Translations under genes and position numbers: made by a program | The notes under the pieces: generated by a model | What the model saw: the letters and a program-made list of their open reading frames with translations, nothing else | What the model was told of the DNA's origin: nothing | Database searches by the model: none | In this document: positions 5,622 through 58,157 of the stretch, one piece after another | Position numbering within the stretch: the first letter of the stretch is position 1 | Layout of the letters: every line of letters begins with the position of its first letter | NCBI GenBank assembly: GCA_946408345.1 | Contig: CAMJRR010000007.1 | Span: forward strand, 1 to 64,000 | Reading direction: 5' to 3' | Length of the DNA stretch: 64,000 bases | Source of the DNA: an uncultured Bacteroidales bacterium | Lineage (GTDB): Bacteria; Bacteroidota; Bacteroidia; Bacteroidales; F082

Positions 5622-5654
5622 GGCTTATACAATTTGTGGTTCGTTAATATGGGA

Positions 5655-5662
5655 CAAAGATA
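5655..5662 (-). promoter_or_regulatory. Bacteroidetes -7 box TATCTTTG for the second S8 protease
   Basis: caaagata on + strand, about 34 bp upstream of ATG. Confidence 0.5.
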
Positions 5663-5764
5663 AAGAATATTTTTATTTTACAAGTAAAAAATATTGTTTC
5701 AACCATAATATTTCCGTTTCAATTCTCCATTTTCGGTGTTTTATGTCCTCTTTTCAAGTTTTGC

Positions 5765-5772
5765 TATCTTTG
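5765..5772 (+). promoter_or_regulatory. Bacteroidetes -7 box TATCTTTG upstream of the M16 peptidase
   Basis: gcTATCTTTGcag 18 bp upstream of ATG 5791. Confidence 0.6.
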
Positions 5773-5790
5773 CAGCCCAATTTTCTATCC

Positions 5791-7032
5791 ATGTTGGAAA
5801 ACAAGTACATTGAAGCTACCCTCCCGAATGGCATTCGGCTAATTCATAAGCAAAAACAAGGCGAGATTGCTCACTTAGTGCTAATGGTGGAGACAGGAAC
5901 GCGCGATGAGTTGGCCCATGAAAATGGCCTTGCCCACTTTGTGGAGCATACCATCTTCAAAGGCACACAAAACCGCAAGGCTTACCATATCCTGAGCTGC
6001 CTCGACAATGTGGGCGGCGACCTCAACGCCTTCACCACCAAGGAAGAGACCTGCATCCAGGCCACTTTCCTGAAACAGCATTACAGACGCAGCCTCGACC
6101 TCTTTGCCGACATCGCCTTCCATTCCACTTTCCCCGAAAACGAGTTGGTCAAGGAAAAGGAAGTCATCTTAGACGAAATCAATTCCTATTTGGACTCTCC
6201 ATCGGACGAGATCTACGATTTGTTCGAAGAAATGGTCTTCAAAGGGCATCCTTTGGCACGCAACATATTGGGTACTACAGAGTTGGTGAAAGGCTTCCAC
6301 CGCCAGGACATCCTCGACTTCATGGCGCATAACTACAGCACCGACCAAATGATACTGGCCTCCATCGGTGACATCAGCTTCAAGGAGTTCGAGAAGCTGG
6401 CCATGACCTATTTCGGCAGTCAACCAACACACATTATTAATAAAAAGCGAGAGATTTTCACGGGCTACACTCCCGAATGCCGAACCGAGACCCGTAACAA
6501 CCACCTCAGCCATTGCATCCTTGGAGGCCTTGCTCCCGAATTCAGCAGCCCATTACGCATGCCCATCGTAATGCTCAACAACGTACTGGGCGGTCCAGCC
6601 ATGAGCTCGCGCCTCGGTCTTAATATACGCGAAAAATACGGTTTTGCCTACAGTATCGAGTCGCAATACACCGCCTATTCCGATGTTGGCCTCATCAACG
6701 TCTATATGGGTGTCGATCCCGACTCTTTGGAGCGCGCCATCGATTTGGTACACAAAGAATTGGACAAACTCTGCACACAAGAGTTAGGTACTTTACAACT
6801 CCATCATGCCAAACAGCAACTCATCGGGCAAGTCGCCTTGAGCTATGAAAGCGGCATGAACGAGCTGTTGAGTGCAACCCGTTCTCTCATCATGGGTGAG
6901 CCAATTGAATATATGGACGACATTATTCAGAAAGTGGAAGCCGTCACGTCCAGCGACATCCTCGAAGTGGCCAACCGTGTGTTCGACAAGAAACAATTGA
7001 GTCAGATTGTGTTCAAGGGAGTCGAAGATTAA
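5791..7032 (+). CDS. M16 family zinc metallopeptidase (pitrilysin/MPP-like)
   Basis: HFVEHTIFKGT (HxxEH) zinc motif, ...LVKEKEVILDEI; start at MLENKYIEATLPNG preferred over the 5620 ORF start because the promoter lies in between. Confidence 0.92.
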   Translation: MLENKYIEATLPNGIRLIHKQKQGEIAHLVLMVETGTRDELAHENGLAHFVEHTIFKGTQNRKAYHILSCLDNVGGDLNAFTTKEETCIQATFLKQHYRRSLDLFADIAFHSTFPENELVKEKEVILDEINSYLDSPSDEIYDLFEEMVFKGHPLARNILGTTELVKGFHRQDILDFMAHNYSTDQMILASIGDISFKEFEKLAMTYFGSQPTHIINKKREIFTGYTPECRTETRNNHLSHCILGGLAPEFSSPLRMPIVMLNNVLGGPAMSSRLGLNIREKYGFAYSIESQYTAYSDVGLINVYMGVDPDSLERAIDLVHKELDKLCTQELGTLQLHHAKQQLIGQVALSYESGMNELLSATRSLIMGEPIEYMDDIIQKVEAVTSSDILEVANRVFDKKQLSQIVFKGVED

Positions 7033-7050
7033 TACTCTTTATAGAGAATT

Positions 7051-7100
7051 AAGGCGGAATATTCTTAATTAAAACGGAATATTTACGTTTAAAATCATCA
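7051..7100. repeat. 20-bp-phased degenerate array (copy A), consensus around AAAACGGAATATT
   Basis: aaggcggaatattcttaatt (7051) / aaaacggaatatttacgttt (7071) / aaaatcatca... (7091). Confidence 0.6.
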
Positions 7101-7180
7101 AAGCATGATAATGGATAATTTTTTTCACACTGAAAAACAGCGGCTTATCTCCTGTGACGAAAAATAATTGAAAAAAAAGC

Positions 7181-7210
7181 TTGACAAAACTTTTACAGTT
7201 TGTACTTTTG
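7181..7210 (+). promoter_or_regulatory. Promoter of ORF-less unit A (TTGACA 7181, TACTTTTG 7203)
   Basis: Matches Bacteroidetes -33/-7 consensus; upstream block similar to copies at 10390 and 13729. Confidence 0.65.
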
Positions 7211-7214
7211 TATC

Positions 7215-7332
7215 GCTGAAACGGAATAAAAATGTTTAAAACGGAAATATTAAGAGTAAGGCTTTTTTCATAATGATTTGATTTAGTTGTATGGAGGTGG
7301 AAGGTTGGTTTTTCGGCCTTCCACCTTTTTTA
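7215..7332 (+). ncRNA. Candidate short untranslated transcript (unit A)
   Basis: Promoter followed about 120 nt later by a strong hairpin plus T-run; no supported ORF between. Confidence 0.35.
7296..7332 (+). terminator. Rho-independent terminator
   Basis: GGTGGAAGGttggtttttcggCCTTCCACC followed by a T-run. Confidence 0.8.
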
Positions 7333-7341
7333 AAAAAAAGC

Positions 7342-7370
7342 TTGACATATTCAATTAGTTTGTACCTTTG
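7342..7370 (+). promoter_or_regulatory. Promoter for the first cassette gene pair (TTGACA, TACCTTTG)
   Basis: gcTTGACAtattcaattagtttgTACCTTTG about 40 bp upstream of ATG 7409. Confidence 0.7.
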
Positions 7371-7408
7371 TAACGACGACAATACTGACAACCACAAAAA
7401 CCTACGAT

Positions 7409-8818
7409 ATGAAAAAAGGAATTCTACTTTTCATGCTATGCGGCTTTGCCCTTGTTTCACAGGCCCAGCTGCAACCCATCTCCCACTGTTCGACCAACAA
7501 TGTTAGCCTGACCATCCTCGGGGACGGTTCCTGCATGATCAGCCAGCAAGAAGATGAAATGGGCTTTTATTCTTGTCCAACCTGGGAAGTTCCTGCAGGC
7601 AGTGGCAAACAAACCATTTTCCAACACTCGCTTTGGTTTGGCGGCCTCGATGCTGACGACAGTCTTCATTTGGCCGCCTATAGATTCGGTCAGATTGGGC
7701 ATGACTATTGGCCAGGACCGCTCAAGACAACCAATGCCACCATCGACATGATGACAGTCCTCAAGTATCATCATATTTGGAACCTATCCCGCGAAGAAGT
7801 CGACTACTTCATTGCTCATCATGGAGAGGCCGGCTACGAGGCACCTGAAGACATCCTTACCTGGCCTGCACACGGCGAGGGTGATTATGCTCCCGACCTC
7901 GCTCCTTTTATAGATGTAGATGGCGATGGCGTTTACAATCCCGAAGCGGGTGATTATCCCGACATCAAGGGCGACCAATGCCTGTTTTACATTTTCAACG
8001 ACAGTTTTATGGAACACGGAGAATCACACGGCAAACAGATTGGCCTTGAAGTTCATGCCATGGTGTATGCCTACGATGCTCCCGATGACGAAGCTTTGAA
8101 CAACACGGTATTTTTCAACTACAAGTTCTGTAACCGTTCTACCAACGACTATCATGATGTGTATCTCGGTCTCTGGACCGACTGGGACATCGGTTTCTGG
8201 TTTGATGACTATGTAGGTTGTGATGTGCAACGCAATGCATGCTTTGGCTATAATGGCTATCCTGCAGATGGTACTGGAGAACCCATTGCATACGGAGATA
8301 ACCCGCCCGTTCAGGTGTTGACCGTGTTGGCAGGAGCTTACACGGACGTCAACGAACGCTTAGGCATGACAGGATTCATGTACCACAACAACGCCGCCAA
8401 TGTAAATGGCGACCCAACCGATGCAGAAGACTATTATAACTACATGCAAGGCCTATGGAAAAACGGACAACCGATGATGTATGGTGGCGATGGCTATAAC
8501 AGCGGCACACTTAACCTTCCATGCAAATACATGTTCCCTGGCGACAGCGACCCCGACAACATAGGTACTAACGGCATCCAACCCGAAGGCTACGGCACCA
8601 ACGGCATATACTGGACCGAAGAGCAATGCGGCAATACCCCCAGTGACCGAAGAGGTCTGGCCTCGGTAGGACCTTTCAACCTCAACGCTGGCGGAACGCA
8701 GGAACTGGACTACGCCATGATTACAGTGTGGAAAAACGAAAGCCTGTCCGCCATGGAACGCAAAGGCGAGTTCATCGACCACATCAAAACGCTGTTCAAC
8801 AACGGATTTGCAAAATAA
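7409..8818 (+). CDS. Secreted hypothetical surface protein (paralog of 10595..12121)
   Basis: Signal peptide; conserved WEVPAGSGKxTxFQHxLWFGGLDADD, DVDGDGxYNPEAGDYPDIKGDQ; no sorting domain at its own C-terminus. Confidence 0.85.
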   Translation: MKKGILLFMLCGFALVSQAQLQPISHCSTNNVSLTILGDGSCMISQQEDEMGFYSCPTWEVPAGSGKQTIFQHSLWFGGLDADDSLHLAAYRFGQIGHDYWPGPLKTTNATIDMMTVLKYHHIWNLSREEVDYFIAHHGEAGYEAPEDILTWPAHGEGDYAPDLAPFIDVDGDGVYNPEAGDYPDIKGDQCLFYIFNDSFMEHGESHGKQIGLEVHAMVYAYDAPDDEALNNTVFFNYKFCNRSTNDYHDVYLGLWTDWDIGFWFDDYVGCDVQRNACFGYNGYPADGTGEPIAYGDNPPVQVLTVLAGAYTDVNERLGMTGFMYHNNAANVNGDPTDAEDYYNYMQGLWKNGQPMMYGGDGYNSGTLNLPCKYMFPGDSDPDNIGTNGIQPEGYGTNGIYWTEEQCGNTPSDRRGLASVGPFNLNAGGTQELDYAMITVWKNESLSAMERKGEFIDHIKTLFNNGFAK

Positions 8819-8851
8819 CCACATTGTCTAACCATCAGAAAAACAAGAAAT

Positions 8852-10183
8852 ATGAAAAAACTATACTTCATAATGATGCTCGTCATGACAGGCATCATGG
8901 CCGAAGCACAGACCAGCATTTGGAACGGCAGTAGAAAACTATGGACCCGTGGTGAAGGCACGGAAAGCAGCCCATATCTGATTGAGTCAGCTGAAAACCT
9001 GGCCTTCCTCGCTTATATGGTCAACGAAGGCTATGAAACGCGAGACCTGTACTTCGAACTGACCACCGACATCGACCTGAACGGCAGCGAAGACCAACCC
9101 TGGATGCCCATTGGGTTGGACAACAACTATTTCTACGAAGACGGTTGCCAGAGGGTGCCTTATACATCCCCCAACACCAGCTTCAGAGGTCATTTCGATG
9201 GCGGCGGTCATAAGATATACAACATTTACACCCAAGATGTTTCTATAGCCGGATTGTTTGGATCGGTAGACACCCCAGGCATCATCGAAAACGTCAGCGT
9301 TGAAAGCGGTTTCATTCAAAATGCCACATACGGCGGTGGCATCGTAGGAAAAGGCAATGCAAATGTTGTCATTTCAAACTGCTCGAACAGTGCCGACATC
9401 TCAGGCAATTATGTTGGAGGCATTGTAGGATATGGTTGTAATAGCGTGACCCAATGCTGGAATTCAGGCTACATCAAAGGCAATACGGTGGGAGGCGGTA
9501 TTTCAGGAATCATGACTAATGAAATCAGGGAATGTTTCAACACAGGCAGAGTCGTCGCCTATGGCAATGGCAGCGGCGGCATCATCGGTTTTAGCCAAAG
9601 AGAGATGACCATACTAAACTGCTATAACATGGGACGCGTCTATGGCACTGCCCAATATTCCGGCGGCATCGGTGGTTTCCTCCTCAAGGGATTGGTGAAG
9701 AACTGCTACAACGTCGGTGACCTTTCGGGTGGTCAAGGTACAATTGGTGGAATCATTGGCTCCAGCTTCGATGGCACGGTGGACAACAGCTATTACCTCA
9801 ACACCTGCGGTGGTGAAGGTCTTGGAGAAGCCTTGACCGACATTGAAATGCGCGACGAAGCCTTCGTTGGCATCTTGAACAACGACACGGATGTTTGGGG
9901 CTTCGACGAAAACTACCTCAACGAGGGTTTCCCCATCCTTGAAAGCAGCATCTTGTCGACTATTGAAACGGAAAAAATAACGATGAGTGTTTATCCCAAC
10001 CCCGCCAAAGACAACTTCACCGTGGAAGGCTCGGGCTTGCTGACCATCACAAACCTCCTTGGCCAAAAAGTCATGGAAAAAACCATTGAAAACCGACTGG
10101 TCATCACCCTTCCCGAAGGCTTGTATCTCTTGAAGTTGACCAGCGGCAACACTTCTATAACGCGAAAAGTAGTGGTTTACTAA
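8852..10183 (+). CDS. GLUG-repeat secreted protein with T9SS sorting domain
   Basis: Repeats such as GGGIVGKGNANVVISNCSNSADISGNYVGGIVGYG; C-terminal MSVYPNPAKDNFTVEG...GLYLLKLTSGNTSITRKVVVY. Confidence 0.88.
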   Translation: MKKLYFIMMLVMTGIMAEAQTSIWNGSRKLWTRGEGTESSPYLIESAENLAFLAYMVNEGYETRDLYFELTTDIDLNGSEDQPWMPIGLDNNYFYEDGCQRVPYTSPNTSFRGHFDGGGHKIYNIYTQDVSIAGLFGSVDTPGIIENVSVESGFIQNATYGGGIVGKGNANVVISNCSNSADISGNYVGGIVGYGCNSVTQCWNSGYIKGNTVGGGISGIMTNEIRECFNTGRVVAYGNGSGGIIGFSQREMTILNCYNMGRVYGTAQYSGGIGGFLLKGLVKNCYNVGDLSGGQGTIGGIIGSSFDGTVDNSYYLNTCGGEGLGEALTDIEMRDEAFVGILNNDTDVWGFDENYLNEGFPILESSILSTIETEKITMSVYPNPAKDNFTVEGSGLLTITNLLGQKVMEKTIENRLVITLPEGLYLLKLTSGNTSITRKVVVY

Positions 10184-10233
10184 TACAGAAACAGTGTTTC
10201 TTCATATTTAAAGATTTGGTTTTAGTTGATTTG

Positions 10234-10266
10234 ATAGAGACGGTATAGCGCCGTCTCTATTTTTTT
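10234..10266 (+). terminator. Terminator of GTAGAGACG palindrome type
   Basis: AGAGACGGtatagcgCCGTCTCTATTTTTTT. Confidence 0.8.
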
Positions 10267-10300
10267 CCACCCTCAATAGAAGCATAATACCTTTTGAATA

Positions 10301-10380
10301 AAAACGGAATATTATTGTTTAAAACGGAAATTTAAACAATAAAGCGGATTTTTATAAAATCAACGATTTTTTTCTTGTTG
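10301..10380. repeat. 20-bp-phased degenerate array (copy B)
   Basis: aaaacggaatattattgttt (10301) / aaaacggaaatttaaacaat (10321) / aaagcggatttttataaaat (10341) / caacgatttttttcttgttg (10361). Confidence 0.65.
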
Positions 10381-10428
10381 ACATACAATGGCTTATCTCG
10401 GGTGATGAAAAATAGTTGGAAAAAAAAC

Positions 10429-10458
10429 TTGACAAAATTTTATCAGGTTGTATATTTG
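10429..10458 (+). promoter_or_regulatory. Promoter of cassette B (TTGACA 10429, TATATTTG 10451)
   Basis: Nearly identical to the unit C promoter. Confidence 0.75.
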
Positions 10459-10594
10459 CAGCATGAAATAACCGTAATACTACTTTAAGCGGAAATTTTT
10501 GGATTAAAAAGTTTAATCAACACGCGGCTCAGGCCAACAAATTGACAACATGAAACACAATTAACGGAATCATTCACCCTCAAAAATTAAAGCT

Positions 10595-12121
10595 ATGAGA
10601 AAAAAAACTCTACTCCTTTTGGTGCTTTGCAGCTTTTACATGGCATCAATGGCTCAGCAGCCACCTCTCTCACGCTGCAACGCCAACAACATCAACGCAA
10701 CCATCCTTGGCGATGGCTCTTGCTTTGCGAAACTTGCCATTATCAACCCCAGCAACTGCCCTACATGGGAAGTGCCTGCTGGTAGCGGCAAAGAGACTGT
10801 TTTCCAGCATGCACTGTGGTTTGGCGGTCTCGATGCCGACGATAATCTCCACTTGTCTGCTTTCAGGTATGGCCAAGTCGGCCAGGACTACTGGTCAGGA
10901 CCACTCACGACAACCGATGCCACCATCGACATGATGACCCTGATGAAGTATTACCATGTTTGGAATCTGACCCGTGAAGAAATCAACTTTTTCATTGTTC
11001 ACCACGGCGAAGCAGGTTATGAGATCCCCGATGACATCCTGACTTGGCCCGCCCACGGTGAGGGCGACTACGCAGCCAACCTCGCGCCTTTTGTTGATGT
11101 GGACGGAGACGGACATTACAACCCTGAAGCAGGCGATTATCCCGACATCAAAGGCGACCAATGTCTGTACTTCATTTTCAACGACAGTTATAGGAACCAT
11201 ACCGAATCAGGAGGTAGCAAAATCGGGCTCGAAGTACACGCCATGGTATACGCCTATAGCGATCCCAAAGACGAGGCCCTTCATAACACTATATTTTTCA
11301 GCTACCAATTCTTCAACCGCTCAGCAGATGACTATCACGACGTGTATCTGGGACTTTGGTCAGATTTTGACATCGGATATGGCTGGGACGATTACATCGG
11401 TTGCGACGTACAACGGGGCTCCTACTTTGGCTATAACGGTACCCCCATCGATGGCAGTGGCGAGCCTGAGGCCTACGGCGATAACCCACCCGTGCAGGTG
11501 CTGACCATTTTGGCAGGTCCTTACATGGAAGCTGACGGGCGCGACAACCCAGAGTTCAACGGTGATTGCGATGCTCTCTTCAACGAAACGTACCCTGCCG
11601 ACAAATACGCCTATAACGGCTTCAATTTCGGAAACGGCATTGTAGACGACGAACGTTTGGGCATGACGGGGTTCATGTATCACAACAATGTTTCAGGCAC
11701 AAACGGTGACCCCAGTGAACCTGAAGACTATTACAACTATCTGCGCGGCAACTGGAAAAACGGCAACCACATGCAGTATGGAGGCAATGGCTTTGAAGGC
11801 CAAAATGTGGTAGGCCCCGAATGCAACTTCATGTTCCCAGGCGACAGCGACCCCTGCAACTTCGGCACCAGCGGCATCGCACCAAATGAAGACTACAACA
11901 CTGGCGACAAATTCTGGACAGAGGTTGAATGCCAGAACGCACCCAACGACCGTAGAGGTCTTGGCATGGTAGGTCCTTTCAACTTCAACGCTGGCAGCAC
12001 ACAGGTGGTTGACTATGCCTTGACCACAGTGTGGAAAAACGACGACCACTCTGCCCTGGAGCGCATGGATGCCATCATCGACCACATCAAGGACACGTTC
12101 AAAAACGGTTTTTCAAAATAA
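10595..12121 (+). CDS. Secreted hypothetical surface protein (paralog of 7409..8818)
   Basis: Same conserved blocks (WEVPAGSGKETVFQHALWFGGLDADD; GDYPDIKGDQCLYFIFND). Confidence 0.85.
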   Translation: MRKKTLLLLVLCSFYMASMAQQPPLSRCNANNINATILGDGSCFAKLAIINPSNCPTWEVPAGSGKETVFQHALWFGGLDADDNLHLSAFRYGQVGQDYWSGPLTTTDATIDMMTLMKYYHVWNLTREEINFFIVHHGEAGYEIPDDILTWPAHGEGDYAANLAPFVDVDGDGHYNPEAGDYPDIKGDQCLYFIFNDSYRNHTESGGSKIGLEVHAMVYAYSDPKDEALHNTIFFSYQFFNRSADDYHDVYLGLWSDFDIGYGWDDYIGCDVQRGSYFGYNGTPIDGSGEPEAYGDNPPVQVLTILAGPYMEADGRDNPEFNGDCDALFNETYPADKYAYNGFNFGNGIVDDERLGMTGFMYHNNVSGTNGDPSEPEDYYNYLRGNWKNGNHMQYGGNGFEGQNVVGPECNFMFPGDSDPCNFGTSGIAPNEDYNTGDKFWTEVECQNAPNDRRGLGMVGPFNFNAGSTQVVDYALTTVWKNDDHSALERMDAIIDHIKDTFKNGFSK

Positions 12122-12148
12122 CACAATCAATCATATAACACTTTAATA

Positions 12149-13507
12149 TTGAATGCTATGAAAAAGATATACCTCATTGTCATGCTCCTCATGACAGGCA
12201 TGATGGCCGAAGCCCAAACCAGCGTTTGGAATGGCAGCCGCAGACTTTGGACAAGCGGCGAAGGCACTGAGAGCAATCCCTACTTGATTGAATCGGCAGA
12301 ACAGCTTGCCTTTCTCTCCTACATGGTCAACAAAGGACTCGTCACAACTGATTTGAACTTCAAGTTGACCACTGACATCGACTTGAATGGCAGCGAAGAT
12401 CTGCCTTGGGTTCCCATCGGATTAGGCGACCGCTGGTTCAGCGAAGACGGTTGCGAGCGACTCATCGACCCATCCTACGCCCCAGTCTATTTTTGCGGGC
12501 ATTTCGACGGAGACGGGCACAGCATTTACAACCTTTATGTTGATGGCGGCACCTATGTCGGTCTGTTCGGATTAGTATCAGGACAAGGTTCTTTAATCGA
12601 GAACCTCAACATCGAAAACGGTTATGTCAACGGCACCTATAGTGGAGGCATTATCGGACAATGCACGGGCGCTGTAGATATTTTAAACTGTCTGAACAGT
12701 GCAGAGATTGTAGGCACAGAAGCTGCTGGAGGCATTGTCGGACAAGGAGGAAACATCATCCGCAACTGTAGCAACTCCGGCCATATCGTCAGTTCAAGCT
12801 ATGCTGGTGGTATAGCAGGTTCACTGGCCAAAGAGCTTTACGAGTGCTTCAACACGGGCGGTATCAACGTCAACGGCTCCGCCGCAGGAGGCATTTTAGG
12901 CAGAAGAGGCGGAGGAAAGCTTATCATCGTCAACTGTTACAACCGAGGCGATCTGTCGGGCAATGCAACCCCTGGCATCGGCGGTATTGCTGGCATCGCC
13001 AACGGTAATGCGACAGACATCCGCAACTGTTATAACGTGGGTAGCATCACCAACAACAGTGGCAACGCAGGCGGATTGTTCGGCTATGATAATGTAAACA
13101 ACATCAACAATGTCTATTACCTCAACACTTGCGGTGGCTGGGGACCTGGAGAGGACAAAACTGCCGAAGAAATGCGCGACCCCGCTTTTGTCGATTTGCT
13201 GAACCTCAACACCAATGTCTGGGGCTACGACGAAGACAACATCAACGATGGCTATCCCATCCTGACAGGTACCCTTATGTCGACCGAAGAGACTGCCGTC
13301 AACACGATGAGCGTCTATCCCAACCCCGCCAAGAGTAGTTTCACAGTGGAAGGCACGGGCTTGCTGAGCATCACCAATGTCCTTGGACAGACAGTCATGG
13401 AAAAGCCGATTGAAAAAATGTCAATTATTACGCTCTCCGAAGGAATCTACCTCTTGAGACTGACCGACGGTAGCGCTTCCACCACAAGAAAAGTAATTGT
13501 ATATTAA
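12149..13507 (+). CDS. GLUG-repeat secreted protein with T9SS sorting domain (paralog of 8852..10183)
   Basis: GGIVGQGGN..., GGIAGSLAKELYECFNTGG repeats; MSVYPNPAKSSFTVEG...STTRKVIVY. Start may be 12158 (MKKIYL). Confidence 0.88.
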   Translation: MNAMKKIYLIVMLLMTGMMAEAQTSVWNGSRRLWTSGEGTESNPYLIESAEQLAFLSYMVNKGLVTTDLNFKLTTDIDLNGSEDLPWVPIGLGDRWFSEDGCERLIDPSYAPVYFCGHFDGDGHSIYNLYVDGGTYVGLFGLVSGQGSLIENLNIENGYVNGTYSGGIIGQCTGAVDILNCLNSAEIVGTEAAGGIVGQGGNIIRNCSNSGHIVSSSYAGGIAGSLAKELYECFNTGGINVNGSAAGGILGRRGGGKLIIVNCYNRGDLSGNATPGIGGIAGIANGNATDIRNCYNVGSITNNSGNAGGLFGYDNVNNINNVYYLNTCGGWGPGEDKTAEEMRDPAFVDLLNLNTNVWGYDEDNINDGYPILTGTLMSTEETAVNTMSVYPNPAKSSFTVEGTGLLSITNVLGQTVMEKPIEKMSIITLSEGIYLLRLTDGSASTTRKVIVY

Positions 13508-13560
13508 AACACGAAGAATAAGTACTTTTTTCCATTATGATTTAGGTTTAGTTGATTTGG

Positions 13561-13592
13561 TAGAGACGGTGCATGCACCGTCTCTATTTTTT
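13561..13592 (+). terminator. Terminator
   Basis: AGAGACGGTGCATGCACCGTCTCTATTTTTTT. Confidence 0.85.
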
Positions 13593-13630
13593 TACGATCA
13601 AATTGATAATGATTGTTTGCAATAAATTCA

Positions 13631-13710
13631 ATTAAAGCGGAATTTTATTGATTAAAGCAGAAATATTACAAATAAAACAATTTATTTTACAAATAAGCGA
13701 TTTTTTTCTG
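13631..13710. repeat. 20-bp-phased degenerate array (copy C)
   Basis: attaaagcggaattttattg / attaaagcagaaatattaca / aataaaacaatttattttac / aaataagcgatttttttctg at 13631, 13651, 13671, 13691. Confidence 0.65.
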
Positions 13711-13762
13711 CTTGACATACAGCAATTTATCTTTGGTGACGAAAAATAGTTGAAAAAATAGC

Positions 13763-13792
13763 TTGACAAAATTTTATCAGATTGTATATTTG
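13763..13792 (+). promoter_or_regulatory. Promoter of ORF-less unit C (TTGACA 13763, TATATTTG 13785)
   Basis: Near-identical to 10429..10458, as is the downstream leader. Confidence 0.7.
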
Positions 13793-13798
13793 CAGTAT

Positions 13799-13977
13799 GA
13801 AATAACCGTAATACTACTTTAAACGGAATTTTTTTAATTTAAAAGTTTAATCGACATGCGGCTCAGGCCAACAAATTGACAACATGAAACACATTTGACT
13901 GTAAGTGCTTTTTTTTCATAATGATTTGGTTTTAGTTGATTTGGCAGAGACGGTGCGTGCACCGTCTCTACTTTTTT
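13799..13977 (+). ncRNA. Candidate untranslated transcript (unit C; cassette leader joined directly to cassette terminator)
   Basis: Leader tgaaataaccgtaatactacttta...cggctcaggccaacaaattgacaacatgaaacac is shared with 10463..10558, then runs straight into the conserved 3' element and terminator. Confidence 0.45.
13946..13977 (+). terminator. Terminator of unit C
   Basis: AGAGACGGTGCGTGCACCGTCTCTactttttt. Confidence 0.8.
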
Positions 13978-14107
13978 ATTGCTTTGGAATTGCTTCGCAA
14001 GAAATGCCAGTTATTCTTTAAAATTCTATTTCAAAATCTTTCAAAATATGTTTTTGATCGATTTTCAGGATGATTTTTGACAGATTTCTATCCTTTTGGA
14101 TATCCCA

Positions 14108-14614
14108 TTAATTCGTCTTGAACTTGTACTTCACCTCTTTCAGTTCAGCGTTGGCCTTGGTAATCTTGTTCTTCAGGTTCTCCTTGTAATTCGCCACTTT
14201 GGCAGCAATTTGTGCATCGCCTAAAGCCAGCATTTCGGCGGCGAGGATGGCTGCATTGAGGGCGCCGTTCACGCCCACTGTGGCCACAGGAATGCCTGGG
14301 GGCATTTGGATGATGGACAGCATGGCGTCGAGGCCGTCGAGCATACCCTTCACGGGTACGCCGATGACGGGCAGTGTGGTGTTGGCGGCAATCACGCCAG
14401 GCAAGGCGGCAGCCATGCCAGCGGCAGCAATGATTACTTTAATGCCGCGGCCTTGGGCTTCGCGGGCAAACTGTTCCACTTCATTCGGTGTGCGGTGCGC
14501 GCTGAGGGCGTTCATCTCAAACGGAATTTCCATCTCATCGAAGAACTGAGCGGCTTTTTCAAGAACGGGAAGGTCGGAAGTGCTTCCCATGATGATGCTT
14601 ACTGTTGGTGTCAT
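14108..14614 (-). CDS. purE: N5-carboxyaminoimidazole ribonucleotide mutase
   Basis: VSIIMGSTSDLPVLEKAAQFFDEMEIPFEMNALSAHRTPNEV; AAGMAAALPGVIAANTTLPVIGVPV. Confidence 0.96.
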   Translation of the reverse strand: MTPTVSIIMGSTSDLPVLEKAAQFFDEMEIPFEMNALSAHRTPNEVEQFAREAQGRGIKVIIAAAGMAAALPGVIAANTTLPVIGVPVKGMLDGLDAMLSIIQMPPGIPVATVGVNGALNAAILAAEMLALGDAQIAAKVANYKENLKNKITKANAELKEVKYKFKTN

Positions 14615-14682
14615 ATTATGTTGGTTGTTTAATTGTTTAATTGTTGAACTGTTGAAGAGAGACCAGAAACGACCACATTAAT

Positions 14683-14805
14683 GCTCTTTACCCTCATGGC
14701 GGAGGAACATGCCATCCCTTGTACGCGAAGACGACTGTCCTTTGCGCAAAGGATTGCGGGTCTCCTCATTCCGCGAATGTGGAACCGCAATGAGGGTAAA
14801 GGAGC
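14683..14805. repeat. Intergenic inverted-repeat element
   Basis: Arms gctcTTTACCCTCAT...ATGAGGGTAAAggagc, with internal palindrome CCTTTGCGCAAAGG. Confidence 0.55.
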
Positions 14806-14946
14806 AAAGAAAGTCATTCTCAGACAATCCTCACTTCTTTAGATGGCAAAAATAGTTTTTTTTCAGGTATGGTCAAACCTATGACTTCAATTTGTATATT
14901 TGTGTCGCCTAAAGCAAAAAAGCAAGCAAAATTCAATCCTTTGAAA

Positions 14947-15486
14947 ATGAAAACAGTAAAAGTTTTAGACAAGGAATTTGGGCTGTACATCCCCCAAGAA
15001 AAAATCGAGGCCAACATCCAAAACGTGGCTGACCAAATCAACAAGGACTTAGAAGGTATGAACCCGTTGTTCCTCGTAGTGCTCAACGGTGCCTTTATGT
15101 TCGCTTCCGAACTATTTAAGCGACTGACGATTCCCTGCGAGATTAGTTTCGTCAAGCTGTCGTCATACGCTGGAACGGAGACCACCAATGTCGTCCGTGA
15201 GCTCATCGGGCTGGATCATCCCCTGAACGGCCGCCATGTGGTCATCGTGGAAGACATCGTCGACACAGGCCACACCTTGCGCTACACCACCCAGAAACTC
15301 CGAGACTTGAAGGCCGCTGACGTCCGCATCGCCACGCTGTTCTTCAAGCCGAACAATTTCCAATACACATACCCCATCGACTACAAAGGCATGGACATCG
15401 GCAACGAGTTCATCGTGGGATATGGATTGGATTATAACCAACAGGGGAGAAATCTGCCGGATATTTATAAGATAATTGAGCAATAA
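14947..15486 (+). CDS. hpt: Hypoxanthine phosphoribosyltransferase
   Basis: PRPP motif VVIVEDIVDTGHTL; start at MKTVKVLDKEFGLYI. Confidence 0.93.
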   Translation: MKTVKVLDKEFGLYIPQEKIEANIQNVADQINKDLEGMNPLFLVVLNGAFMFASELFKRLTIPCEISFVKLSSYAGTETTNVVRELIGLDHPLNGRHVVIVEDIVDTGHTLRYTTQKLRDLKAADVRIATLFFKPNNFQYTYPIDYKGMDIGNEFIVGYGLDYNQQGRNLPDIYKIIEQ

Positions 15487-44063: not shown

Positions 44064-44101
44064 TTACACAAAAAATCCCGACTTCCATCGGGACCTTGTG
44101 G

Positions 44102-44174
<73 letters not shown>

Positions 44175-44182
44175 AAAAGCGG

Positions 44183-44255
<73 letters not shown>

Positions 44256-52424: not shown

Positions 52425-52978
52425 TATTTTACTCTATTCTCTTCTAATAACATCTCTCTAACGATGCAGTCATCTGTACATTGCTCAAGCAATTCCTTTT
52501 GCATCAGTTTGAAAACCGGATGCTTGAAATCTGGAGCTACTTCACAAAGTGGCACCAAAGCAAATCGACGTAGATGCAAACGCGGATGAGGGACGATCAG
52601 TTTCTCTGTTTGGATGATACGACTGCCATAGTACAAAAGGTCCAAATCGGCCGTACGGGAACTGTATCCTTGAATTTCTGGATGCCTTACCCGACCCAAC
52701 TCCATTTCAATACCAAGCAACTGTTGCAGCAAATCCATCGGAGACAATTCCGTTTCCATGACAATGACCCGATTCAAAAACCACTCTTCTGCCTCGAAGC
52801 CCCATGGCTCCGACTCATAGGCAGACGAGATCTTCACCACCTGCCCACACCTATTATTAATTAATTGGCATGCCTGGGCAAAGATAGCTTCTTTATCGCC
52901 CATATTCGATCCAAAGAGCACATAACACTTTTCCACATTCCGCCTATGCCAAGTTTCCATCATTGAGATTTTCGGCAA
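52424..52978 (-). CDS. folK: 2-amino-4-hydroxy-6-hydroxymethyldihydropteridine diphosphokinase
   Basis: YVLFGSNMGDKEAIFAQA; RTADLDLLYYGSRIIQTEKLIVPHPRLHLRRFALVPLCEVAPDFKHP. Confidence 0.95.
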   Translation of the reverse strand: MPKISMMETWHRRNVEKCYVLFGSNMGDKEAIFAQACQLINNRCGQVVKISSAYESEPWGFEAEEWFLNRVIVMETELSPMDLLQQLLGIEMELGRVRHPEIQGYSSRTADLDLLYYGSRIIQTEKLIVPHPRLHLRRFALVPLCEVAPDFKHPVFKLMQKELLEQCTDDCIVREMLLEENRVK

Positions 52979-53028
52979 AGGTAAGTTTTTTTTATGTACT
53001 TTTGCGGTCTAAACAAAAACATAACATC

Positions 53029-54816
53029 ATGAAATTCGGTAAAGTTGTTCTTGCCGCTTTTTTAGGCACATTGATTGCATTGGTAATCAACTTCTTCATT
53101 AAAGTTGGCGTGGTTTCTTCCATGATTTCCAACATGTCAAAAAACATGCAGACTTCCACTACTGTGAAGCCCAATTCCGTGCTTTACATGAAACTCAACT
53201 ACGACATTCCAGACCGCACGGTCGACAATCCCCTCGGCGCCATTGATTTCCAGTCGATGGAATCGATTGATGCCACAGGTATGAACGACATCCTGCGCAA
53301 CATCGAACATGCCAAGGCCGACCCAAACATCAAGGGTATCTACATGGAACTGAGTAGTATCCCAACCTCCACGGCTACCTTGCAGGAAATCCGCAACAAA
53401 CTCATTGAGTTCAAGGAATCGGGGAAATTCATTGTCACTTATGGTGAAAGCTATTCGCAAAGCGCTTATTATATGGCATCCATCGCCGACAAGATTATCC
53501 TCAATCCCGAAGGTGCCCTCGACCTGCACGGCATGGCCTCACAAATCATGTTTTATAAACACCTGTTAGACAAGCTCGATGTTGAGATGCAGATTGTCCG
53601 CGGTCCCAACAACCGCTTCAAGAGCGCTGTGGAGCCTTATTTCTTGGACAAGATGAGCGAAGCCAACCGCGAGCAGATGGACAAGCTATTGGGCACAGTC
53701 TGGGGACAAATCCTTCAAGGCATCAGTCAAAGCCGCAACATCAGTGTTGAGCAACTCAATATGATTGCCGACAATTTAGAGACCTCTTTCGATGCAAACA
53801 AAGCCCTCGAATATGGCCTGGTCGACAACCTGTACTACAAAGATCAAGTGTTGGACGAACTGAAAGGCCTGACGGGCAGCAACAAGAGCATCAACGCCAT
53901 TGGCAATGCCAATTATGCCAAATCCTATAAAGACAAGAACGTGAGTAAGAACGAGGTTGCCATCATCTATGCCTCGGGACAAATCTTCGACGGTAAGGGA
54001 GATGAAACCACGGCTATCTACTCCGAAAATCTCTCCAAGACCATACGTAAGGCCCGCGAAAACGAAAACGTGAAAGCCGTTGTGCTGCGCGTCAACTCGC
54101 CTGGTGGCAGTGCCGTGGCATCGGCCATCATCGGTCGTGAGCTCGACCTCACCAAGGAAGTAAAGCCCGTCATCGTCTCCATGGGCAACTACGCTGCCTC
54201 AGGTGGTTACTGGATTTCTGCCAAGGGTGACTATATCTTCGCCGACCCCACCACACTCACGGGTTCCATCGGCGTGTTCGGTACTTTCCCGAATGCAAAA
54301 GGTTTCTTGAACGACAAGGTCGGTCTGACTTTCGATGTGGCCAAGACCAACGAAAACGCCGAGTTCCCCAACTTCACCGAACCGCTCACCGAGTTCCAAT
54401 ACAGCAAATTGCAAGAAAGTGTAGTTAACACCTATGACCACTTCACCAAACGCGTGGCCGAAGGTCGCGGCTTGACCCAAAGCTATGTTGATAGCATCGG
54501 TCAAGGCCGTGTGTGGGCTGGTGCCGATGCCATTGGTTTAGGTCTTGTCGACCAGTTGGGCGACATGGAAGACGCCATTGCTTACGCAGTCCAAAAAGCT
54601 AACCTCGGCAATGATTACAAGGTAACTGAATGGCCCAAACAGAAGGACTTCTTCACCCGCATGATGGAATCGATGAACAATAGCGGTTCCGACCAACTTG
54701 ATGCTGCCATGAAGCAAAGACTTGGTGCTTACTACGATTACTTCAAAGGCTTGGACAACCTGCAAAAGAACACGGGCATCCAAGCGAGACTGCCTTTTGA
54801 CATGATTATCGAATAA
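53029..54816 (+). CDS. sppA: Signal peptide peptidase SppA, 67K type
   Basis: VNSPGGSAVASAIIGREL; VSMGNYAASGGYWISAKGDYIFADPTTLTGSIGVFG; start at MKFGKVVLAAFLG. Confidence 0.95.
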   Translation: MKFGKVVLAAFLGTLIALVINFFIKVGVVSSMISNMSKNMQTSTTVKPNSVLYMKLNYDIPDRTVDNPLGAIDFQSMESIDATGMNDILRNIEHAKADPNIKGIYMELSSIPTSTATLQEIRNKLIEFKESGKFIVTYGESYSQSAYYMASIADKIILNPEGALDLHGMASQIMFYKHLLDKLDVEMQIVRGPNNRFKSAVEPYFLDKMSEANREQMDKLLGTVWGQILQGISQSRNISVEQLNMIADNLETSFDANKALEYGLVDNLYYKDQVLDELKGLTGSNKSINAIGNANYAKSYKDKNVSKNEVAIIYASGQIFDGKGDETTAIYSENLSKTIRKARENENVKAVVLRVNSPGGSAVASAIIGRELDLTKEVKPVIVSMGNYAASGGYWISAKGDYIFADPTTLTGSIGVFGTFPNAKGFLNDKVGLTFDVAKTNENAEFPNFTEPLTEFQYSKLQESVVNTYDHFTKRVAEGRGLTQSYVDSIGQGRVWAGADAIGLGLVDQLGDMEDAIAYAVQKANLGNDYKVTEWPKQKDFFTRMMESMNNSGSDQLDAAMKQRLGAYYDYFKGLDNLQKNTGIQARLPFDMIIE

Positions 54817-54888: not shown

Positions 54889-54936
54889 GTTCACAACTTT
54901 GTGGACCACAAAAATGTGGACCACAAGATTGTGAAC
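54889..54936. repeat. 48-bp palindromic direct repeat, left copy
   Basis: GTTCACAACTTTGTGGACCACAAAAATGTGGACCACAAGATTGTGAAC; identical to 56152..56199. Confidence 0.95.
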
Positions 54937-54951
54937 TATCGAAAAAAGATG

Positions 54952-54959
54952 TATCTTTG
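54952..54959 (+). promoter_or_regulatory. Bacteroidetes -7 box TATCTTTG for the ATPase gene
   Basis: TTG at 54929-54931, inside the left repeat, sits at -33 spacing. Confidence 0.65.
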
Positions 54960-54983
54960 CAGCGGAATAAAGGATTCGTCATT

Positions 54984-56111
54984 ATGAAAAAATCATTCAT
55001 CTATGGTGTAGCTGTTGAAGGCAACAACTTCACAGACCGTGAAAAAGAGACCCGACGCCTCAAGCAAGACTTTGAAAACGGGCAGAACATGATACTCATT
55101 TCTCCGCGAAGAATGGGCAAGACCTCGCTCGTAAGGAAAGTGCAGACCCTTGTCGACACGAAATCCATTGTGACGGTTTACATGGACATCTACGATTGCC
55201 GCAACGAATACGAGTTCTACAACAAATTTGCCGCCTCGCTCATGAAGCAAACCGCAGGCAAGGCAGAAGCCGTCATAAAAAACATCAAGGAATTTTTAGT
55301 TCGTTTGTCACCCACCCTCTCCTTCGGTCCCGACCCCAACAACGAGCTTTCCGTATCCCTTGGCATCACGCCCAAAGACTACTCGCCGGAAGAAATCCTG
55401 CAACTGCCTGAACGCATGGCCGCCAAAATGGGCAAACACATTGTCGTGTGCATTGACGAATTCCAACAAATTGGCGAGTTTCCGGACTCGCTGAAGGTCC
55501 AAAAGAAAATGCGCGGCATCTGGCAGTTGCAAAACAACGCTTCGTATTGCCTGTTTGGGAGCAAGAAGCATCTGCTCACCAACCTCTTCCAAAGCAAGAG
55601 GATGCCTTTTTACCAATTTGGCGACATCATGTTTCTCCAGCCCATCCCCACAGAAGACTGGATTCCTTTCATCCGCCAGAAGTTTGAGGAAAAGAAAATG
55701 AGCATTTCCGATGCCCTCATTGAAAAGATCTGCTCGACGGTGCAAAACCAATCCTCATACGTGCAGCAACTGGCATGGAACGTCATGCTCAACACCACAA
55801 AAAAGGCGGACGAGGCCACTTTGGAAACGGCCATTGAAGATCTGCTCAACCAAAACTCACTGCTGTTTTTGCAGCAAATCGAGAACCTGACTGCCTACCA
55901 GATGAACTTCCTAAAGGCCGTGGCCAAAGGCGTTCACACGGACTTCACCTCTAAAGAAGTACTATCCACCTATGATTTAGGCTCAAAATCCAATGTCTCA
56001 AGAATCAAGACCGTGTTGACGCAAAAGGAGCTGATCGAAAAAACACCAAACGGAATCGTGCTTACCGACCCCGTTTTTGAGCTTTGGTTTACTAAAGAAT
56101 GGTGCGAATAA
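54984..56111 (+). CDS. Archaeal-type AAA ATPase with C-terminal winged-helix domain
   Basis: NMILISPRRMGKTSLVRKV P-loop; IVVCIDEFQQIGE Walker B; C-terminal TSKEVLSTYDLGSKSNVSRIKTVLTQKELIEKTPNGIVLTDPVFELWF. Confidence 0.88.
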   Translation: MKKSFIYGVAVEGNNFTDREKETRRLKQDFENGQNMILISPRRMGKTSLVRKVQTLVDTKSIVTVYMDIYDCRNEYEFYNKFAASLMKQTAGKAEAVIKNIKEFLVRLSPTLSFGPDPNNELSVSLGITPKDYSPEEILQLPERMAAKMGKHIVVCIDEFQQIGEFPDSLKVQKKMRGIWQLQNNASYCLFGSKKHLLTNLFQSKRMPFYQFGDIMFLQPIPTEDWIPFIRQKFEEKKMSISDALIEKICSTVQNQSSYVQQLAWNVMLNTTKKADEATLETAIEDLLNQNSLLFLQQIENLTAYQMNFLKAVAKGVHTDFTSKEVLSTYDLGSKSNVSRIKTVLTQKELIEKTPNGIVLTDPVFELWFTKEWCE

Positions 56112-56151
56112 TCTATTGATTTTCAAACCAATTACAAACAATATACTAAAA

Positions 56152-56199
56152 GTTCACAACTTTGTGGACCACAAAAATGTGGACCACAAGATTGTGAAC
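56152..56199. repeat. 48-bp palindromic direct repeat, right copy
   Basis: Identical to 54889..54936. Confidence 0.95.
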
Positions 56200-56204
56200 C
56201 GAAA

Positions 56205-58157
56205 TCATTTCTCATATTCCGCCATCACCTCGTCACGTTCCATCTGCTTCTCGCCCCAGTCGTCCATGAGGTTTTGGAGTTGCTCTTTCTTTTGGCCGTA
56301 AGCCCAATACCAGTCGTTATCAATCTTGATGTCGGGATGTTGGTCAGGGTTGGCCATAATAGTGTCTTGGTCGGCTAACTCGGCTTCCAATTTGCCGATG
56401 GCTTCTTCGAGGCGTTGAATCTCTTTATCGACTTTGCGCAACTTGGCATCAATCTGCTTCTTGCGCTCGTAGTTGATCTTATTCTGTGACTGTGGTACGA
56501 CTTCTTGGACTTTGGTTTGTTTGGCAGCAATCTCCAACTCCTTCAAGTGGCTGAGATTCTTTTGCTCCAAGAAGTCGTAAATGTCGCCGATGTATTCCTT
56601 GATGTTGGGCTTGCGGAACTCGTAGACCTTGTTGGTCAGGCCTTGCAGGAAATCACGGTCGTGGGAGACGATGATTAATGTGCCGTCGTATTGGATTAAG
56701 GCATTCTTCAGGATGTCCTTGGAGAGCATGTCCAAGTGGTTCGTAGGCTCGTCGAGGACCAACAAATTCGTCGGGAAAAGCAGCATCTTGGCCAAGGAAA
56801 GACGGGCTTTCTCGCCACCAGAGAGCACCTTCACTTTCTTGTCGATGTCGTCGCCACGGAAAAGGAAGGAACCAAGCAAAGCCTTCACCTTGAGGCGCAT
56901 ATCGCCAACGGCAATATCATCCAAGGTCTCGAAGACGGTCTTATTCATGTCAAGCATGTCCTGCTGGTTCTGAGCATAGTAGCCAATTTTCACTTCATGG
57001 CCGAGTTTCACCTCGCCCTCATGGTCGAGCACACCACAGATGATTTTGGAAAGCGTAGATTTGCCTTCGCCGTTGCGCCCGACAAAGGCAATCTTTTCGC
57101 CTCTGGGAATAAGCAAATTCACGTCTTTGAGGATGACTTGGTCGCCGTAGGATTTGCCCACATGGTTGAGCTCCAGCGTCACCTTACCGGAATGCGGTGC
57201 AGGCGGAAACTTGAAATGGATGGCCGTACTATCGATGTCGTCGATGACGATTTCATCCATTTTTTCGAGCAACTTCACGCGGCTCTGCACCTGCTTGGCC
57301 TTGGTCGCCTTGTAGCGGAACCGCTCAATGAACGCCTCGATGTTCTTGATTTCGCGCTGCTGGTTTTCATAGGCCGAGCGTTGCATGTCGACACGCTCCT
57401 CGCGCAGACCGACATACTCGGAATACGGCACCTTGTAGTCATAGATTTTGCCATTCGAGATTTCCACCGTGCGGATGGTGATGTTGTCCAAGAAAGCGCG
57501 GTCGTGCGAGACCATCAGGATGGCACCGTAATAGGCCTTCAGGAAGCTTTCGAGCCATTGAATGGATTCAATGTCTAAGTGGTTGGTAGGCTCGTCGAGA
57601 AGAAGCAGGTTTGGCTTCTTCAACAGAATCTTGGCCAATTCCACGCGCATCTGCCAGCCATTGCTGAACTCACGCATGGGACGCAGCATGTCGTCGTGAC
57701 CGAAGCCCAAACCGACCAGAATCCTTTCCGCTTCGCCTTCGATACTATTGCCACAGAGTAAGGCCAAACGGTCATTCAAGTTGTTCAGTTTGACAATCAA
57801 CTTTTCGTACTGTGGGCTTTCGTAATCGGTGCGGTCGGCCAGTTCCTGCTGTAGGCGCTCCGAATCGCGCTCCAGCTGATGGTATTCATCGAAAGCGGAA
57901 AGGGCTTCATCCAAAACGGTCTTCGTGCTGTTGACATTCTTTTCCTGAGGTAGATAACCAATGGTAACACCCTGTGGGATGATGACGTCGCCTTTTGAAG
58001 GTTGTTCCAATCCGCAGATGAGTTTCAGCAGCGTGGTTTTGCCTGCACCGTTCTTGCCCACCAAGCCGATGCGGTCCTTCTCGCGAATCAAAAAGGAGAT
58101 GTCGGTGAAGAGGTCCTCACCGGTGAAGTGCATGCTTAGGTTTTGGATTGAAATCAT
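56205..58157 (-). CDS. ABC-F family ATPase
   Basis: Two ABC cassettes (GLVGKNGAGKTTLLKL; AFVGRNGEGKSTLSKI) with LLLDEPTNHLD and LVLDEPTNHLD, no TM domain. Confidence 0.95.
   Translation of the reverse strand: MISIQNLSMHFTGEDLFTDISFLIREKDRIGLVGKNGAGKTTLLKLICGLEQPSKGDVIIPQGVTIGYLPQEKNVNSTKTVLDEALSAFDEYHQLERDSERLQQELADRTDYESPQYEKLIVKLNNLNDRLALLCGNSIEGEAERILVGLGFGHDDMLRPMREFSNGWQMRVELAKILLKKPNLLLLDEPTNHLDIESIQWLESFLKAYYGAILMVSHDRAFLDNITIRTVEISNGKIYDYKVPYSEYVGLREERVDMQRSAYENQQREIKNIEAFIERFRYKATKAKQVQSRVKLLEKMDEIVIDDIDSTAIHFKFPPAPHSGKVTLELNHVGKSYGDQVILKDVNLLIPRGEKIAFVGRNGEGKSTLSKIICGVLDHEGEVKLGHEVKIGYYAQNQQDMLDMNKTVFETLDDIAVGDMRLKVKALLGSFLFRGDDIDKKVKVLSGGEKARLSLAKMLLFPTNLLVLDEPTNHLDMLSKDILKNALIQYDGTLIIVSHDRDFLQGLTNKVYEFRKPNIKEYIGDIYDFLEQKNLSHLKELEIAAKQTKVQEVVPQSQNKINYERKKQIDAKLRKVDKEIQRLEEAIGKLEAELADQDTIMANPDQHPDIKIDNDWYWAYGQKKEQLQNLMDDWGEKQMERDEVMAEYEK

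Follow-up and report, generated by a model that had tools for sequence, protein, structure and literature searches.

A single-gene ATPase cassette probably bounded by its own operator arrays in rumen Bacteroidales

Two identical palindromic repeats of 48 bp bracket a single ATPase gene on contig CAMJRR010000007.1 of an uncultured Bacteroidales bacterium, raising the question of whether they serve the encoded protein as regulatory sites, mark the ends of a mobile unit, or do both. The first-pass annotation of the 64,000-nt stretch analysed here (the window) had offered the first two as alternatives: that the ATPase regulates itself by binding the repeats on either side of its gene, or that these form the termini of a single-gene unit able to move or be excised. 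Comparison with relatives lends support to each, and the explanation that we consider probable is that of a 1.31-kb cassette (array, promoter, ATPase, spacer, array), the arrays of which are the ATPase's own operator, and which is exchanged as a unit and lost via recombination between its arrays.

Anatomy of the repeats and of the enclosed gene

An exact search of the window places the repeats at 54889–54936 and 56152–56199 (both on the forward strand), with no mismatches between them; the 48-mer has these two exact copies in the window, compared with no matches in 100 shuffles. A search of the whole genome (G000; 3.07 Mb), which the earlier annotation had suggested, returns only these copies flanking the ATPase gene when up to 3 mismatches are allowed, and a further copy is possible in the missing parts, given a completeness of 85.7 %. 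There are four occurrences of the core TGTGGACCACA in G000, always within the two repeats, and a genome-wide dispersed REP-like repeat was rejected as a candidate, with all four cores located at the ATPase gene. The repeat had been described as near-palindromic with two units 15 bp apart, and both the outer arms (GTTCACAA/TTGTGAAC) and the two TGTGGACCACA cores are as stated; on a finer reading, each repeat is composed of three 12-bp palindromes of the form CACAA-N2-TTGTG, set at 15-bp steps. Within the left (upstream) array, the proposed operator, these lie at 54892–54903, 54907–54918 and 54922–54933, and within the right (downstream) array, which has the same sequence, at 56155–56166, 56170–56181 and 56185–56196. 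The TTG of the left array's last half-site (54929–54931, forward strand) serves as the −33 promoter element, bearing out the overlap with the −33 position noted previously. It lies 20 bp from a −7 box of the Bacteroidetes TAnnTTTG type (TATCTTTG; 54952–54959, forward strand), which is assigned by its sequence and family-wide position.

Exactly one gene is enclosed, as had been claimed, encoding a 375-aa P-loop ATPase (54984–56111, forward strand; PF01637-like) with a C-terminal winged helix. Between its stop codon and the right array is a spacer of 40 nt (56112–56151, forward strand), which is similar within the focal clade at different loci. A Pfam search of this gene detects no transposase or recombinase between the arrays and no nuclease domain in the protein, in agreement with the first-pass annotation. 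The left neighbour is sppA (signal peptide peptidase; 52963–54816, forward strand), the conserved host gene of the insertion locus, and the right neighbour is a convergent ABC-F ATPase gene (56205–58157, reverse strand), which lies directly beside sppA where relatives have an empty site free of arrays.

The protein scores above the Pfam cut-off for PF01637 (ATPase_2; 38.7 bits vs 33.2), and the gene is under strong purifying selection (dN/dS of 0.01–0.09 in between-species comparison). An AlphaFold2 model built from 47 relatives (mean pLDDT 88.4) ends with a winged helix at approximately residues 304–373, confirming the C-terminal segment proposed from the sequence. Its best PDB matches are the archaeal ATPases 2qen (E-value 7.7 × 10−16) and 2fna (SSO1545; E-value 2.3 × 10−14), over 363–368 alignment columns, followed by ORC2 and Cdc6, with some of these matched structures being bound to origin DNA. 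Membership of a known defence family was rejected, as similarity to PADLOC PDC-S01 and NCBIfam DS41_1 (E-values of 1 × 10−5 and 7 × 10−5) is weak and confined to the P-loop region (residues ~23–100), with the DS41_1 match reaching 22 bits vs a 370-bit cut-off; nor does anything found here point to a defensive role such as that of these anti-phage candidates. An ATPase-nuclease of the DUF1703/DUF4143 type was likewise set aside, as the C-terminal PD-(D/E)XK domain is not present. The same applies to a virus or plasmid origin, given that four IMG/VR contigs and a few plasmid or phage records harbour distant relatives only (24–51 % identity), with those on Bacteroides plasmids being weak relatives at 27–31 %.

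The upstream array across the ATPase family

The family was assembled as 131 distinct homologues with flanks, drawn from whole genomes and GTDB contigs, and 130 bp upstream of each gene was examined for periods of 9 to 21 (p ≤ 0.025 per locus vs shuffles). An array with a 15-bp period is found upstream in 121/131 homologues, down to ~37 % protein identity, with period 15 alone standing out (a mean of 14.2 of 18 matches vs ~8.8 for other periods). The sequence of the array tracks protein relatedness (Mantel rho 0.68, with none of 500 permutations as high and the top permuted value being 0.17), and at least four array alphabets are in use, namely CACAA/TTGTG, TTATTAGTAA, TATATCATATA and ATTTCAAAT. 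As such a correlation can arise for any linked DNA from relatedness alone, the functional link between array and protein is argued from two other features: the 15-bp period persists across changes in array sequence, and the recognition helix is diverged beyond the rest of the protein. This helix, predicted from the secondary structure of the model at codons 335–347 (55986–56024, forward strand), has residues that differ by array type. It is the most diverged segment between two array types, with a ratio of between- to within-group identity of 0.65, compared with ratios of 0.78 (ATPase domain) and 0.80 (entire winged helix).

With regard to position, a half-site and a −7 box can both be detected at 74 loci, and at 65 of these the TTG of the last half-site is separated from the −7 box by 19–21 bp, which is the usual −33/−7 spacing of Bacteroidetes promoters. 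One subclade instead carries the array downstream of the −7 box and ahead of the start codon. Both positions would suit repression, and autorepression is the suggested mode, with activation as the alternative; the anatomy appears to be that of a private autoregulatory operator. Sequence comparison finds both of the features looked for in such a site, in that array and promoter of the gene overlap, and the array sequence varies in step with the DNA-binding helix.

The distribution of arrays amongst 90 genomes of the genus points in the same direction. The sequence TTGTGGACCACAA has 48 exact matches in 23 of these genomes, 7 of which are single cores within long open frames that are devoid of a second unit; the remainder have neighbouring units present and are located beside an ATPase gene or at a solo array. 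As non-coding arrays are found only in these two settings, nothing suggests that further genes are under their control. The initial reading was to be abandoned, as stated at the outset, if the repeats turned up at numerous unrelated sites without any tie in position to the ATPase; the arrays instead lie beside the ATPase or at a locus where a relative carries it. Taken with the promoter register and the co-variation of the helix, this supports the autoregulation first suggested, with binding itself being predicted, and the ORC/SSO1545-like ATPase very probably has its private binding sites in the arrays beside its gene.

The downstream array is far more restricted, and was rejected as a general family trait. 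Significant downstream dyad and period signals are present in 15/131 loci only, comprising 13 from the focal clade (>80 % identity) together with L162 and L158. Of the latter two, L162 (56 % identity) has an array at both ends, and the best left–right match of L158 is a different 30-bp repeat. The two arrays change together, being for example of the GGTACACC type at both ends in G048, G056 and G156, and of the GTTCACAA type in G000. Most of the family possesses the upstream array alone, and such homologues also occupy varied loci, indicating that the downstream array is unnecessary for dispersal.

Occupied, empty and solo-array sites

The array–ATPase–array unit occupies at least six loci amongst related rumen Bacteroidales, in data that are mostly metagenome-assembled genomes. 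Occupied sites are sppA/ABC-F (G000), sppA/island (G083, G019 and G081, with that of G075 split over contigs), lepB/dapB (G002 and G065), locus B (G021, G071 and G072), the leuS locus (G079, and G076 on its left side), priA (G018) and one further locus (G048, G050, G056 and G156). Relatives supply the corresponding empty sites, which are free of arrays at sppA/ABC-F (e.g. G031, G030, G089, G003 and G059), the comparison first proposed for this locus, and also at lepB/dapB (G000 itself, G089, G003, G062 and others), locus B (G042, G089, G003 and others) and leuS (G020, G051, G042 and others). The absence of arrays from empty sites at these four loci indicates that the arrays came with the gene, and that no landing array existed there. 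No target-site duplication is visible by eye at several loci, where the empty sites are too diverged to fix the junction to the base.

A third class of site retains an array in the absence of the gene. Solo arrays are found at sppA (G024 and G048, a shorter example in G058, and also at the duplicated sppA end of G018), priA (G007 and G012), lepB/dapB (G073 and G087) and locus B (G083), and each sits at a locus where some relative carries the gene. At two of these, one hybrid array lies exactly in place of the missing 1.2-kb unit with both flanks conserved: G024 at sppA and G007 at priA. When G024 is aligned with G083, the overlap of the flanking blocks is precisely the 48 bp of the array (query 48–2031 and 1984–2776; subject gap from 7953 to 9169), and for G007 against G018 the overlap is 17 bp, inside the array. 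Such hybrids are the products expected from recombination between two arrays. An identical picture would result if a circular form integrated at a solo array, such that the comparison would fit either direction, and solo arrays could predate insertion instead of being scars. Some losses are, by contrast, ordinary deletions, as at lepB/dapB of G073, where the right array and the last codons of the gene are kept.

Exchange between species is most clearly seen for G000 and G083, which have near-identical unit DNA next to sppA genes that have diverged. The ATPase genes display a dS of 0.02, compared with 1.0 for the last 90 sppA codons, which are <200 bp upstream. From left to right, identity is 90.5 % for sppA, 86 % for the spacer between sppA and the array, 100 % for the left array and promoter, 99.6 % for the CDS, 95 % for the second spacer and 92 % for the right array, dropping to 51 % beyond it; the step-up in identity coincides with the left array. 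Other pairs (G019 and G081) have coding sequences that are 95–98 % identical, with less sharp edges, and the 63 % identity of G019 sppA reflects an alignment spoiled by a broken gene rather than a measure of divergence. By sequence comparison, the locus thus displays occupied and empty sites together with exchange boundaries at the ends of the unit, which, alongside the hybrid solo arrays, supports the original suggestion of a unit of one gene, mobile or excisable, with the repeats as its ends.

Mechanism, alternative readings and related systems

On the preferred explanation, the winged helix of the ATPase would bind the upstream array, cover the −33 element and repress its own gene, as anatomy and co-variation suggest. 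The cassette is dispensable and horizontally exchanged, passing between species as a unit with edges at the arrays and residing at different chromosomal loci in different species. Recombination of array with array can lead to its loss, leaving one hybrid array behind, with the comparison of sites showing the event and loss being the presumed direction. The downstream array is a clade-specific second copy that would enable excision and perhaps a return to a solo array, and it may also bind the ATPase, with looping or insulation of the gene as its putative role.

That last function could instead be the primary one, with the downstream array acting as a second operator and the ATPase, at both arrays, looping the 1.26-kb gene for stronger repression or for insulation from convergent read-through, whilst mobility is incidental. 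The joint change of both arrays, the similar 40-nt spacer and the retention of both arrays in L162 make this a possible, if somewhat doubtful, account, as gene conversion between the copies can explain the joint change and most of the family has no downstream array. A self-mobilising element, in which the ATPase pairs the bound array ends and host enzymes (RecA, Xer or replication) excise or insert the unit, is less likely still. The arrays would then be att-like ends, with autoregulation secondary, and the coincidence of unit edges with arrays, the six or more loci, the array-free empty sites and the precise solo arrays are all in keeping with this, as is the far higher frequency of flanking direct repeats at superfamily ATPases than at other genes (see below). 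It must, however, be set against the lack of an encoded nuclease or recombinase, the absence of a visible target-site duplication, the movement of most homologues without a downstream array, and the ability of plain homologous recombination to account for loss. That the encoded protein itself drives excision or insertion is put forward as a proposal. Its fullest form, a minimal single-gene mobile element devoid of nuclease and recombinase, in which the operator array at either end of an ORC/Cdc6-like ATPase gene would be both promoter switch and recombination end and the protein would control its own excision and spread by way of host recombination, is similarly improbable; if true, it would mean that the wider Bacteroidales ATPase superfamily moves as single genes with flanking direct repeats.

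Two further readings are far less likely. Given that ORC/Cdc6 proteins are amongst the best structural matches, that the period is iteron-like and that the weak relatives noted above lie on Bacteroides plasmids, the locus could be a plasmid-derived relic, with an ORC/Cdc6-like initiator and its iterons forming a replication or partition site. This is very unlikely, however, as the register of the array is tied to the promoter, no other replication genes are present, and all close relatives found are on chromosomal contigs beside host genes. Scarcely credible is the notion that these are REP-like or terminator palindromes, unrelated to the protein and duplicated by chance around the gene: they are palindromic, and the right end does lie between convergent genes, but the arrays are exclusive to the ATPase in the genus sample and co-vary with protein clade, no T-run follows the palindrome and no Rfam family matches.

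Amongst characterised systems, archaeal ATPases of the SSO1545/PABY2304 type (PF01637; 2fna and 2qen) share a near full-length fold (TM 0.67–0.72), the P-loop and the C-terminal winged helix, whilst the focal family is 17–18 % identical to them, bacterial (Bacteroidales) and equipped with 15-bp operator arrays; to our knowledge, no binding site is known for the archaeal proteins. The ORC/Cdc6 initiators also combine an ATPase with a winged helix fold and use sequence-specific DNA boxes, but the focal arrays are situated on the gene's promoter, the cassette is dispensable and no replication role is seen. RAYT genes are single genes flanked by cognate palindromes, and resemble the cassette in this regard; the focal protein differs as an ATPase without a nuclease, with palindromes that are not spread through G000. 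Finally, the AAA-ATPase_like/PDDEXK_9 (DUF1703) and DUF4143 ATPases possess a related P-loop domain (the PF09820 match is above cut-off), and members near these loci are likewise flanked by direct repeats, whereas the focal protein ends after the winged helix with no PD-(D/E)XK nuclease. ATPases of the DUF1703/DUF4143 type are expanded and horizontally exchanged (PMC6387759).

The protein belongs to a known ATPase superfamily, and its operator code and cassette behaviour were not found described in the open-licence literature, where no report of such ATPases with iterons or flanking repeats was encountered, which is weak evidence of absence. The family is multicopy in rumen Bacteroidales, and no function for it was found described. 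An operator code that can be read clade by clade (15-bp period; four or more alphabets) offers a first testable activity in sequence-specific DNA binding and self-repression, and the occupied, empty and scar sites constitute direct comparative evidence of one gene behaving as a mobile unit bounded by its own predicted binding sites.

Direct repeats flanking other ATPases were surveyed amongst 549 genes in and around these loci (left–right repeats with a score ≥40 within 300 bp). They were found for 18/66 genes of the focal family, 6/16 other P-loop ATPases with an RRxGK-type motif and 6/467 other genes (Fisher p 4 × 10−7, ATPases vs other genes), with three of the last six cases resembling motif-missed ATPases by sequence (L146 twice and L171). 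Amongst these repeats are duplicated ends of genes, terminators, and palindromic arrays belonging to ATPases of other types, and the pattern is a lead rather than a finished test, as it was noticed post hoc and the loci were chosen around the focal family.

The interval between sppA and the ABC-F gene is an insertion hotspot, harbouring different ATPases, toxin-like HNH genes and a small zinc-ribbon gene depending on species. At the ABC-F end of the same island, L109 (14669–16093) and L117 (12773–14197) carry a different, 474-aa P-loop ATPase (MLIGRNEER...) with its own palindromic array on both sides (CTGCTAAGTC...GACTTAACAGCA). On L254 (G018:C4), the sppA 3′ end, a hairpin and the start of an array are duplicated (near 1288 and 3040, reversed) and surround a DUF4143-like ATPase and an AbiEi-like gene. 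For the ATPase gene at L136 (615–1928), 56 bp from the 3′ end of the gene before it recur identically on the far side, directly past the ATPase stop codon, and a superfamily ATPase cluster of L171 (Muribaculaceae Zag1; ~4000–15000) has GTTCACAA-type arrays between and around non-orthologous ATPase genes.

Elsewhere in the window, an intergenic REP-like element, GTAGAGACGGTGC(A/G)TGCACCGTCTCTAC, is repeated at 13560–13585, 13946–13971 and near 10200, and the leuS locus of relatives has hairpins resembling it. Next to a tRNA-Leu gene is a tandem pair of identical tRNA-Gly(gcc) genes (44099–44255), and several long direct-repeat pairs between 1062 and 24000 (70–88 % identity, spaced mostly ~2.7–3.3 kb apart) are probably tandemly duplicated genes.
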